Assembly (NCBI RefSeq): GCF_000348725.1
Contig: NC_020813.1
Coordinates: forward strand, 1,054,001 to 1,118,000
Reading direction: 5' to 3'
DNA from: Pseudobdellovibrio exovorus JSS
GTDB lineage: Bacteria; Bdellovibrionota; Bdellovibrionia; Bdellovibrionales; Bdellovibrionaceae
Length of the DNA: 64,000 nucleotides
A model generated the notes under the pieces. That model did not search any database and was not told where the DNA came from. It was given only the letters and a program-made list of their open reading frames with translations. Position numbers and translations under genes: made by a program. The stretch's first letter is position 1. Each line of letters starts with the position of its first letter. Shown piece by piece: positions 27,076-35,438 of this stretch.

Positions 27076-29349
27076 ATGAATTTGGCCGAAATTTCGATTA
27101 AACGTCCGATCTTTATCACATGTGTTGTGATTTTAATGATGATACTGGGAGTTATTTCTTACAAGAAGATGCCAGTGGATCAGTTTCCGGATGTGACTTT
27201 TCCAATTGTATTCGCTGAGATTTTATATCCAGGGGCTTCGCCAGTGGATGTGGAAAGACAAGTATCAAAGATCGTTGAGGATGAGCTTTCAAGCTTACCT
27301 GGCCTAGAAACTGTTTCTTCGTACAACTACGATTCAGTGGCGATTATTATCGTTAAGTTCCGCCTAGGCGTGGATATTAAAGAATCTGAACAACAGGTAC
27401 GAAATCGTATTCAGAACGTACGTAATAAATTGCCTAAGGACATTGAAGAACCGCTGATTCGCAGATTCGATCCAGCAGATCAGCCGATTGTTTCGATTGC
27501 GGTGAATTCCAATTTAGATCCGGCTAGTTTATATGATGTGGCTTACGAACAAGTGAAGCCAATGTTGGAACGTGTACAAGACGTGGGGTTAGTGCGCCTT
27601 GTGGGCGGGCAGAAAAAAGAAATCCAAGTCATCGTAGATAAAAATAAACTACAAGATCATCGTCTCTCGATGAATCAGGTTTCAAAAAAAATCGAAGATA
27701 CGTCTCGTGATATCCCTATCGGTAAATTCGAGGGACAAAGTGATGAAACGATTCTTCGAGCGGTGGGTGAGTTCAGTGAGCTTTCTCAGATTGAAGATGT
27801 AGCGGTAAACTTCTTTGGGTCAGATCGTCCAATTAAAATTTCTGATATTGCCACCGTTAGGGAAGGTTTGGAAAAACCGAAACGCTTTTCTTCAATTAAT
27901 GGTGAAAATGCCTTGTTCTTACAGGTGTTTAAACAGTCGGGTGCCAATACCGTAGCTGTGGCGGATCGTCTTAAACAGCAAGTGGGTAATGTTAATGCCA
28001 TGCTAAAAGATAGAGGCATCGATGCTCAGGTGATCTTGGTGCGTGATGCCTCTGTGCCAATTCGATTAAACGTTTTGGACGTTCAAGAGAGTATTTTTAT
28101 CGGTATCATCCTTTGTGTGGTTGTCGTTTTCTTCTTCCTTGGTTCGGCTAGATCGACATTTATTACAGGTCTTGCACTTCCCAACTCGTTACTTGGTGGC
28201 TTTATCATCATGTACGCCATGGGATTTTCTATCAATATCATGACGTTGATTGCACTTTCATTGGCTGTGGGGCTTTTGATTGATGATGCTATTGTTGTGC
28301 GTGAAAATATATTCCGTCACCTCGAGATGGGCAAAAAACCCATGGATGCGGCTTTAGATGGAACAAAAGAGGTAGCTTTAGCGGTTATTGCAACAACGAT
28401 GGTGGTCATGGCTGTATTTGGACCTATCGCCTTCGTGCCAGGGATTGTCGGGCAGTTCTTCAAGCAATTTGGACTGACGGTTGTTTTCACGATGATGATC
28501 TCTTTGTTTGATGCCTTTACCGTTGCGCCTATGTTGTCAGCATACATGGCCACAGGAAATGAACATCATAGAGGACAGGGATTTATTGATCGCATGTTGT
28601 CTGCGTTTGATCGTTTTCAAACATGGTTAGAAGATATCTACGAGTCCGTTCTGAAATGGACTATTCGCTATCGTAAAACAGTTTTGATTTCTGCTGTGGT
28701 GATTTTCTTGGGATCAATGTTTTTGGGTAAGTTTATTTCTAAAACATTCTTACCAGCCAGTGATTTGGGCGAGTTCAGTGTAACTGTAGAAAAGCCAGCT
28801 GGAACTTCTTTGGAAGGCACTTTGCGATTTACCCGTAAGGTTGAAAGCCTTTTAAAGGCAATGCCAGAAGTGTCTTTGGTGACTGTGACAGTGGGTTCTA
28901 ACTCTTACGAATCAAACAAGGCAGATTTATTTATTCAGTTGGTTCCGGCGAAAGAAAGAAAAGGCCTCAGTACGACGAAAATAAAATCCATAGTTCGTGA
29001 AAAACTGGAGCCGTTGAAATCTGAAGCCATTATCGCCGTTACCGATGTTGACATCAGTGGTGGGGGGCAGAAGCCATTAAATCTGTATGTTGTAGGTGAT
29101 AACCTAGAAGAACTGGCGACATTTGCTTTGGCCTTACAGAAACGTATGGCGCAAATTCCAGGGCTAGTAGACGTAGATACAAACTTCCGTTCAGGAAATC
29201 CTGAATACCATGTTGTTTTTGATCGTGATAAATCAGAAGCTTTAGGGGTTTCTACTGTGGCGGCGGGTGCTGAACTTAGAAATCGCACCGAAGGTGCCGT
29301 GCCAGCTATCTATAGAAAAGATGGAATTGATTACGCGATATCCGTGTGA
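27076..29349 (+). CDS. RND efflux permease, N-terminal part (frameshifted)
   Basis: The 757 residues correspond to the first three quarters of an HAE1/AcrB-type permease of about 1,040: TM1 (RPIFITCVVILMMILGVISY), porter loops, TM2-6 and the proton-relay pair D403-D404 in GLLIDDAIVVREN, then the second porter loop. It ends in DYAISV followed by TGA. The next frame continues the same protein without loss, as AISV|MFSESEKEL, if two bases are removed from the GTGTGATG stretch at 29344-29351. Either a real frameshift or a sequencing error has split the gene. It would pump hydrophobic compounds from the inner membrane. Confidence 0.85.
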   Translation: MNLAEISIKRPIFITCVVILMMILGVISYKKMPVDQFPDVTFPIVFAEILYPGASPVDVERQVSKIVEDELSSLPGLETVSSYNYDSVAIIIVKFRLGVDIKESEQQVRNRIQNVRNKLPKDIEEPLIRRFDPADQPIVSIAVNSNLDPASLYDVAYEQVKPMLERVQDVGLVRLVGGQKKEIQVIVDKNKLQDHRLSMNQVSKKIEDTSRDIPIGKFEGQSDETILRAVGEFSELSQIEDVAVNFFGSDRPIKISDIATVREGLEKPKRFSSINGENALFLQVFKQSGANTVAVADRLKQQVGNVNAMLKDRGIDAQVILVRDASVPIRLNVLDVQESIFIGIILCVVVVFFFLGSARSTFITGLALPNSLLGGFIIMYAMGFSINIMTLIALSLAVGLLIDDAIVVRENIFRHLEMGKKPMDAALDGTKEVALAVIATTMVVMAVFGPIAFVPGIVGQFFKQFGLTVVFTMMISLFDAFTVAPMLSAYMATGNEHHRGQGFIDRMLSAFDRFQTWLEDIYESVLKWTIRYRKTVLISAVVIFLGSMFLGKFISKTFLPASDLGEFSVTVEKPAGTSLEGTLRFTRKVESLLKAMPEVSLVTVTVGSNSYESNKADLFIQLVPAKERKGLSTTKIKSIVREKLEPLKSEAIIAVTDVDISGGGQKPLNLYVVGDNLEELATFALALQKRMAQIPGLVDVDTNFRSGNPEYHVVFDRDKSEALGVSTVAAGAELRNRTEGAVPAIYRKDGIDYAISV

Positions 29350-30194
29350 TGTTTTCAGAGTCTGAAAAAGAATTGATGAAAAACTTCAGCACGACGTATG
29401 TGCCGAATCAGAATATGAATATGGTTCCGTTATCAAAAGTCGCGCGTGCTGAAAAGAAAGTGGGATATTCTCAAATTAATCGTCAGAACAAAGGACGTTT
29501 TATTTCTATATCTGCAAACTTGGGTCCGGATGGACAACTGGGGAATGCATCCCAAGAAATCAACAAGATATTACAGAATGAGTTAAAACCTCCGGTAGGA
29601 ATTAGCTACAGATTTGAAGGACAAGCACAAGACTTTCAAGATTTGATGACCAATATGATGATCGCAGTTTTCCTTGGGGTTCTATTCATTTACTTAGTAT
29701 TGGCCTCATTATACGAAAGCTTTATCACGCCATTTACGATTTTATTGGCGTTGCCACTGGGGTTATCAGGGGCTTTCATTGCCTTATTTGTCTTTGATAA
29801 GTCTATCGATATTTTTTCCATCATCGGTTTAATTCTGTTGATGGGGGTTGTGGCGAAGAACTCGATCTTACTAGTCGATTACACGAATCAGCTGTTACAA
29901 GAAGGACTTGAAATGAATGAGGCTCTTGTGAAAGCGTGCCGCGTTCGTTTGCGTCCTATTTTAATGACGTCTATTGCGTTGATTGCAGGTATTTTACCAA
30001 TCGCTATTGGTATGACAGCGCTAGGTACACAACGCCAATCTATGGGTGTGGCGATCATTGGTGGTATCGTGAGTTCTACAGTTTTGACGTTGGTAGTGGT
30101 GCCAGCGGCCTTTGGATACATTGAAAAATTCCGTCGCTGGTCGACAGCATTAGTTCAAAAATGGCGTGGTGTTGCCAGCGCAACAGAAGCTTAG
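29346..30194 (+). CDS. RND efflux permease, C-terminal part (frameshifted)
   Basis: The 282-residue frame continues the preceding permease from the second porter loop through TM8-12: FEGQAQDFQDLMTNMMIAVFLGVLFIYLVLAS and VVAKNSILLVDYTNQLLQEGLEMNEAL, with the charged residue K in VAKNS and the typical RLRPILMTSIALIAGILPIA. A GTG overlaps the upstream TGA (GTGA), so reinitiation is conceivable, but the fragment would start in a periplasmic loop without a signal, giving wrong topology. It is therefore best read as one gene disrupted by a frameshift. Confidence 0.8.
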   Translation: MMFSESEKELMKNFSTTYVPNQNMNMVPLSKVARAEKKVGYSQINRQNKGRFISISANLGPDGQLGNASQEINKILQNELKPPVGISYRFEGQAQDFQDLMTNMMIAVFLGVLFIYLVLASLYESFITPFTILLALPLGLSGAFIALFVFDKSIDIFSIIGLILLMGVVAKNSILLVDYTNQLLQEGLEMNEALVKACRVRLRPILMTSIALIAGILPIAIGMTALGTQRQSMGVAIIGGIVSSTVLTLVVVPAAFGYIEKFRRWSTALVQKWRGVASATEA

Positions 30195-33868: not shown

Positions 33869-34990
33869 ATGCAATTTATGAAAATCGTGATTTTGAGTAT
33901 TTTTGCTGTTTTTTTTGTCTCTTGTACAAAAAAAAGCAGTACTCAAGATCAGGTCACGACATCTCAAAAAGACCCTCAAATCCACGTCGACAAGCCTGTT
34001 CAGAAATCACAGAAAAAAGAACCAGACTTCAGTAAGACATTGCGTGAAGCGATCTATTTTTCTAGTAGTCTCGAGAGAGAAGCCTTGAAGCTTATTTTGA
34101 AAAATCCATCGTTACAAAAAATAACTTTATTCTCGTCGTTGGCCTATATTGTTGAAGTCAATTCTGGCGCAAAAAAAACTCCGCCTTTTGGCCTAGACTG
34201 CGGGACTTATGACATTAAGCGAGAAAATAATAAGATTTTAATTTTTAAATCCTGCGTTAAACCAGCACCCAAAGTGGCTGAGGTCGATATTATCCGACAG
34301 GATGAAAGTTATAAGGTTCACTTTTTTATCAGCGAGTGGTCTGCTGTTGTCGGCATGTCTGTAGCTTTGACGGGCTCAGATATGAGCTGTGATTTGGGAA
34401 TTAAAGAAAAAAAGTTACACAAACTAATCTGTAATAATTGGTCCTATCAAACAGTAGAGGACCAATTGTCATCAACTGTTTTAAAAGCTCAGGAATTTAA
34501 GTTTCAAAGAGATTCTCAAAAACAATTTGTCATTAAAGGCGCATTTTATAAAGAACTCGTCGAAAACAGAAAGTTTGATGTGCTGGTTCCTTTAGAGGGA
34601 AAGATTAAAATCATTGAAAAAGAAGTGCAAATTATTGATGAGTTTTTAGAAGACATCAAGCAGCAGCAAAATGCTGATGGGGGAACAAATGGCGAAGAAA
34701 GTACAACGCAAAGTGAAAGCGGCTCCAAAGAAGAAGTCAGCGTCGAAGACGGGCGCAATCAAAACCAAGAAAACAGTAACCAAGAAGGTTACAACCAAGA
34801 AAACAACGGGCAAGAAAACCCGTACGGTGAAAGCATCAACCCGAACGAAGAAGGATTCTCTGCGCCGGGGCTCGAGTTCCAAGAAGTCCCAGGCCAAACC
34901 CCAGAGCAAAACCCTGAACTCATCCCAAGCGAAGTCCCACAAGACGATGTCCCAGTCCAACCAGTTCCGACTCGTGGTAGAGGAAGGTAG
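33869..34990 (+). CDS. Predicted lipoprotein whose tail overlaps the peroxiredoxin gene
   Basis: ATG 33869 opens MQFMKIVILSIFAVFFVSC, with a lipobox (VSC) and Cys19; ATG 33878 is an alternative. An N-terminal part up to about residue 270 looks like a compact domain of unknown family (IYFSSSLEREALKLIL, LDCGTYDIKRENNKIL). The tail from about 271 to 373 is rich in Gln, Asn, Glu and Pro. It is encoded by the same DNA as the Lys-rich tail of the peroxiredoxin in another frame, over about 300 bp. Either both frames are translated or the tail is only readthrough until the next stop. No conserved function is recognised. Confidence 0.65.
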   Translation: MQFMKIVILSIFAVFFVSCTKKSSTQDQVTTSQKDPQIHVDKPVQKSQKKEPDFSKTLREAIYFSSSLEREALKLILKNPSLQKITLFSSLAYIVEVNSGAKKTPPFGLDCGTYDIKRENNKILIFKSCVKPAPKVAEVDIIRQDESYKVHFFISEWSAVVGMSVALTGSDMSCDLGIKEKKLHKLICNNWSYQTVEDQLSSTVLKAQEFKFQRDSQKQFVIKGAFYKELVENRKFDVLVPLEGKIKIIEKEVQIIDEFLEDIKQQQNADGGTNGEESTTQSESGSKEEVSVEDGRNQNQENSNQEGYNQENNGQENPYGESINPNEEGFSAPGLEFQEVPGQTPEQNPELIPSEVPQDDVPVQPVPTRGRGR

Positions 34991-35438
34991 TATGATTCCA
35001 GATTTTTCAGCGAAAAGCTCTTCAGGGCAAAATGTACGTTTGTCGGACTTAAAAGGAAAAAAAGTCATTCTGTATTTTTACCCTAAAGACAATACTCCGG
35101 GTTGTACATTAGAGGGAATAGACTTCAATCGACTTCTTCCAGAATTTCAAAAGTTGAATACAGTTGTATTTGGCATTTCACGGGATTCGATTTCGTCGCA
35201 TTGTAAATTCCGTGATAAGTTTGGTTTTAAGTTCGAATTGTTAAGTGACGAAGATGAAAGTCTGTGTCGCTTGTTTGATGTGATCAAAGAAAAAAACATG
35301 TATGGCAAAAAAGTTATGGGTATTGAACGTAGCACGTTTGTGATTGGCGAAGATCAAACTTTACGTGCCGAGTTCCGTAAAGTGAAAGCCGATGGACATG
35401 CTGAAGAAATGTTGAAGTTTATTCGTTCGCTAGAGTAG
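34689..35438 (+). CDS. Peroxiredoxin (Bcp/PrxQ type) with a Lys-rich N-terminal tail
   Basis: Residues 95-249 form a Bcp-type peroxiredoxin: PDFSAKSSSGQNVRLSDLKGKKVILYFYPKDNTPGCT with peroxidatic C139 and FGISRDSISSHCKFRDKF, plus the Arg of ERSTFVIG. The usual second Cys five residues after C139 is Ile here, so this may be 1-Cys or use C in SHCKF. The first 90 residues are an unusual Lys/Ser/Thr-rich tail (KKVQRKVKAAPKKKSASK) resembling histone H1 tails, possibly DNA-binding. ATG 34689 has GGGGGAAC upstream. An internal ATG at 34992 with AGGAAGG would give a normal 149-residue enzyme and follows the upstream stop by 1 nt. Confidence 0.82.
   Translation: MAKKVQRKVKAAPKKKSASKTGAIKTKKTVTKKVTTKKTTGKKTRTVKASTRTKKDSLRRGSSSKKSQAKPQSKTLNSSQAKSHKTMSQSNQFRLVVEEGSMIPDFSAKSSSGQNVRLSDLKGKKVILYFYPKDNTPGCTLEGIDFNRLLPEFQKLNTVVFGISRDSISSHCKFRDKFGFKFELLSDEDESLCRLFDVIKEKNMYGKKVMGIERSTFVIGEDQTLRAEFRKVKADGHAEEMLKFIRSLE

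Follow-up and report, generated by a model that had tools for sequence, protein, structure and literature searches.

Probable same-strand dual coding of a lipoprotein tail and a histone H1-like peroxiredoxin tail in Pseudobdellovibrio exovorus and related genera

Can one strand of bacterial DNA encode, in two reading frames at once, the tail of an exported lipoprotein and the tail of a peroxiredoxin? This question is raised by a 302-bp segment (34689-34990, plus strand) in a 64,000-nucleotide stretch of the Pseudobdellovibrio exovorus JSS genome (contig NC_020813.1, positions 1,054,001 to 1,118,000; hereafter the window). The genome comprises 2,657,893 bases in a single contig. A survey of prokaryotic genomes found no real co-directional overlap >60 bp among those analysed, and a rule was proposed to flag such overlaps as errors (PMC2478687). 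Our comparative genomic analysis indicated that the overlap studied here very probably represents same-strand dual coding. Openness and composition are maintained in both frames, and the sequence is hardly constrained.

Two open frames over the same 302 bp

The initial annotation placed two long frames sharing about 300 bp at 34671-34990. Both frames are open, with 302 bp in common. The end of that interval was correct, the lipoprotein frame terminating at TAG 34988-34990; its beginning was not, because 34671 is merely an upstream in-frame ATG and the true peroxiredoxin start is 34689. A Shine-Dalgarno (SD)-like element, GGGGGAA, precedes this start (34677-34688, plus strand) and sits inside the lipoprotein frame. 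No position of the same phase tested in the lipoprotein gene had as good a duplex energy as this element (-8.4). The SD noted earlier before ATG 34689 was thus upheld, and an SD at the tail start proved to be conserved in relatives.

The downstream gene (34689-35438, plus strand) encodes a PrxQ/BCP-type peroxiredoxin. Its product matched Pfam PF00578 (AhpC-TSA) at 4e-36 and PDB 5enu at 9e-51, with YFYPKDNTPGCT, and it carries the YFYPKDxTPGCT active-site motif of the AhpC/TSA family; its scores for the NCBIfam PrxQ and PRK09437 equivalogs fell short of the curated cut-offs. The catalytic core begins at ~34992 and is preceded by an N-terminal tail of 101 amino acids. This tail has H1-like composition: it is of low complexity, contains 26 Lys, and has a net charge of +29.

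The upstream gene (plus strand) runs to 34990 from a start at 33878 or 33869. By eye and by a simple pattern, its product has the signal peptide and lipobox Cys (FVSC) of a bacterial lipoprotein; relatives carry variants such as LTSC, VAAC, and LTAC, and some distant homologues (G034, G027, G060, and G063) have no clear lipobox. No Pfam or NCBIfam family matched the protein. A globular domain extends to ~34650 and is followed by an acidic tail rich in Gln, Asn, Glu, and Pro, with a net charge of -17 within the overlap. In a predicted model of the domain, the local confidence score (pLDDT) was mostly 70-96 across residues 51-240, suggesting with fair confidence a beta-rich fold (33878-34660); a PDB search with the fold gave no match at E <= 0.001.

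The earlier impression that the overlap is richer in GC and in C-ending codons was borne out. GC content is 0.51 in the overlap vs 0.38 in the enzyme core, and C-ending codons make up 26% vs 14%. T-ending codons are nearly absent (6% vs 36%).

Distribution and history of the overlap

We searched 66 genomes of the family in full, and fetched and compared 62 loci. The enzyme is present in nearly all of the 66 genomes and the lipoprotein in most, usually adjoining the enzyme. The loci fall into four states: dual, separate, without enzyme tail, and without either tail. The dual state was found in 17 of 62 genomes, belonging to six genera (g1, which is Pseudobdellovibrio, g5, g9, g10, g14, and g16). 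In all 17 species both frames are open over the overlap, which ranges from 128 to 305 bp and always has the same phase (phase 2). In the separate state (g19, g13, g11, and g6, among others), a lipoprotein-like gene stops ahead of the enzyme, which bears its own MAKKK-type tail. Bdellovibrio (g4) and g12 lack the enzyme tail; they retain the lipoprotein tail, and the enzyme begins near its core. Both tails are gone together in G049, G052, and G032.

This distribution bears directly on the suggestion that the frame results from a sequence error, or that this strain has recently lost the stop of the lipoprotein gene. In favour of the suggestion, a 2008 survey classed as errors all 715 annotated co-directional overlaps >60 bp that it examined (PMC2478687). 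Yet six genera, with 17 species between them, share the overlap, and it is present in drafts and in single-contig genomes (P. exovorus and G044) alike. Conservation on this scale refutes the suggestion, which we consider almost certainly wrong; loss of the stop by mutation, raised in the initial annotation, was likewise unsupported.

Free H1-like tails occur in other genera of the same family. Of the thirty best-scoring loci in the order's other families, many have free Lys-rich enzyme tails; among these thirty, no tailed locus had a lipoprotein-like open frame in the corresponding position. The enzyme tail is therefore probably older than the overlap, and the lipoprotein tail probably arose by overprinting, i.e., by extension of the lipoprotein frame over an older free H1-like peroxiredoxin tail. 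On trees whose root was not inferred, the dual state, whether of one origin or several, requires 7-8 changes. Homology searches with the free tail did not recover low-complexity tails by sequence.

Two side observations concern the same gene pair. Long Lys-rich H1-like peroxiredoxin tails with no lipoprotein in front were seen outside the family, elsewhere in the order, at L207, L208, L209, L216, L223, L224, L231, and L232. In Bdellovibrio (L069, L070, and L071), the lipoprotein often has N/H-G-R-stop as its end, a consequence of a conserved short overlap between its final codons and the start of the peroxiredoxin (ATGGCCGCTAA).

Evidence for selection on the two frames

For the lipoprotein frame, the enzyme tail protein was kept and its codons were redrawn according to their own local usage. 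From 3 to 13 stops were expected in the lipoprotein frame and none was observed, in 17 of 17 dual genomes. Exact probabilities of an open frame ranged from 0.02 to 6e-9 for individual genomes. The value for P. exovorus alone was 1.4e-5, and its open lipoprotein frame is far beyond chance. The selection of genomes by their overlap is not the explanation, because each open frame is improbable by chance and, of the 28 genomes whose enzyme tail is clear, 17 are dual. Thirteen non-overlapping tails served as controls: they contained stops at roughly the expected numbers, except in GC-rich G039 and G036, which had none. T-ending codons accounted for 0-12% of dual tails vs 21-49% of their own cores, and for 14-28% of AT-rich non-overlapping tails. 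These findings support the initial proposal of true dual coding, the lipoprotein frame being kept stop-free by codon choice across the 17 species.

Stop avoidance could in principle serve the enzyme only. If termination of the lipoprotein frame within the start region of the peroxiredoxin disturbed translation of that enzyme or destabilised the mRNA, stops would be avoided and the lipoprotein tail would be a tolerated by-product. Consistent with this idea, sequence is kept in neither tail and three species lack both. The composition of the lipoprotein tail, however, is shifted beyond what stop avoidance gives. Relative to stop-free expectation, 15 of 17 genomes had a less basic tail (P<0.1) and 11 had a more acidic one (P<0.05), and in most the tail was also less hydrophobic; G047, G035, and G027 showed no acidic shift. 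Net-acidic lipoprotein tails of 77-165 amino acids are also present in non-overlapping relatives and in Bdellovibrio. We therefore regard selection on the peroxiredoxin tail only as unlikely.

In the reciprocal test, the lipoprotein tail was kept and its codons were redrawn. An excess of Lys over expectation appeared in the enzyme frame of 16 of the 17 dual genomes. Bdellovibrio-type controls, which have no enzyme tail, nearly all matched the Lys expectation and usually contained stops. Openness of the enzyme frame is by itself unsurprising. At the tail start, the SD match outranked all or most positions of the same phase in the lipoprotein gene (Fisher p 2.7e-15).

These results bear on the opposite possibility, that only the lipoprotein is translated over the overlap. 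The peroxiredoxin would then start at ATG 34992 or close to it, and Gln, Glu, and Asn codons would give rise to the Lys-rich frame as a by-product. A strong SD for ATG 34992 lies right at the lipoprotein stop in P. exovorus and G050, and the Bdellovibrio enzyme does start near its core. Six dual species (G046, G048, G033, G045, G047, and G054), however, lack any start codon in the 50 nt ahead of the core; in these, translation of the enzyme must start inside the tail or at its beginning. The conserved SD at the tail start, the Lys excess over by-product expectation, and the occurrence of free H1-like tails without any overlap also argue against this possibility, which we consider highly improbable.

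The initial annotation had also pointed to a second SD and ATG just after the lipoprotein stop. They exist: ATG 34992 is preceded by AGAGGAAGG, and the junction (34980-34994, plus strand) comprises AGGAAGG, the lipoprotein TAG, and the in-frame ATG. As a conserved feature they did not hold up. The combination of ATG and strong SD at the stop is missing in most dual relatives, and an internal reinitiation start as a general feature was rejected, an ATG near the stop occurring in only about 6 of 17 dual species. The junction is possibly a reinitiation site for a tail-less peroxiredoxin here and in a few other genomes. In 10 of 17 dual genomes the lipoprotein stop overlaps an enzyme-frame GGT codon, and in most of the 10 this codon specifies the conserved Gly where the core begins.

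Two-way synonymous resampling and the natural controls thus point to selection on both frames, the constraint falling on composition and openness and not on sequence. Several observations weigh against dual coding. The enzyme-frame excess is of Lys over Arg only, and Lys and Arg combined are not above expectation. Neither frame shows classical amino-acid conservation, and both tails evolve nearly freely. In the closest pair, G051/G054, substitutions at the three codon positions were 0.38/0.43/0.40 in the overlap; in the core they were 0.05/0.01/0.41, nearly all at third positions. Within-tail codon shuffles, which keep the T-poor codon set, were mostly not significant alone, and the 17 tests are not independent because the species are related. 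The check proposed at the outset, a comparison of both frames in relatives, succeeded for openness, including freedom from stops, and for composition. Its other part, the ratio of nonsynonymous to synonymous substitutions (dN/dS) by frame, was uninformative and would mislead, given that substitutions are spread about evenly over the three positions.

Other features of the overlap DNA were also considered. An antisense open frame of 140 codons (34646-35068, minus strand) covers the overlap as well; it is probably a by-product of skewed composition. An explanation of the codon bias by RNA structure was unsupported (z 0.52), and no Rfam family matched. A microsatellite origin was rejected, since this genome showed only weak two-copy repeats. 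Elsewhere in the window, two overlapping frames (757 and 282 amino acids; junction near 29320-29349) divide an RND-type efflux transporter (27076-30194) between them; the gene looks frameshifted or mis-sequenced, because the sequences of the two frames seem continuous across the frame change.

Proposed mechanism and comparison with known systems

We propose that the lipoprotein gene traverses the DNA for the low-complexity peroxiredoxin tail and halts about where the structured core starts. Read one base earlier, an AAR Lys codon becomes N-AA, i.e., GAA (Glu), CAA (Gln), AAA (Lys), or TAA (stop). Avoidance of T, and less so of A, at peroxiredoxin third positions would make the basic tail read as polar to acidic in the other frame. 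In this phase, third-base choice can for that reason give a basic tail in one frame and a polar to acidic tail in the other; this reasoning from the genetic code fits the resampling results. The peroxiredoxin most likely initiates independently at the internal SD and ATG. Judging from composition, the Lys-rich tail may bind a polyanion, probably the nucleoid, and keep the peroxidase near DNA, and the acidic tail may be a flexible hydrophilic extension of the exported lipoprotein outside the cytoplasm. The fuller reading holds that the third base alone sets a nucleoid-binding basic tail and an exported acidic tail across genera with neither sequence conserved, and that reinitiation yields a tail-less peroxiredoxin in some species including P. 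exovorus; we judge its chances to be evenly balanced.

In the literature searched, which covered few subscription papers, we found no earlier description of this overlap. A co-directional overlap of 128-305 bp in six genera has statistical support for selection on both frames, and relatives with one tail, separate tails, or neither provide natural controls. The findings suggest that charged tails of low complexity give long overlaps one way to arise and be retained, and that such overlaps would escape tests which rely on conserved sequence. H1-like peroxiredoxin tails across the order also suggest a connection of the nucleoid with peroxide defence that can be tested.

The rnpA-rpmH pair of Thermus (Feltens et al. 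2003, as described in PMC9841429) is likewise a long same-strand overlap in different frames, both of which are reported there as expressed. According to that description, one gene lies inside the other and the start region is shared, whereas here a C-terminal tail lies over an N-terminal tail and the start regions are separate. The holD-rimI pair of Enterobacteria (PMC2478687) resembles the present case as a co-directional terminal overlap conserved across genera; unlike it, the overlap described here spans 128-305 bp and connects two oppositely charged tails of low complexity. The catalytic core is common to PrxQ/BCP peroxiredoxins such as PDB 5enu, but no alignment with a solved relative reaches into the long Lys-rich N-terminal tail. 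A Lys-rich, low-complexity basic segment is also found in the H1-like proteins AlgP and Hc2 (PMC9239181, PMC2848022), a likeness of composition only; unlike in those proteins, the H1-like segment is here fused to a peroxidase and appears to be dual-coded.
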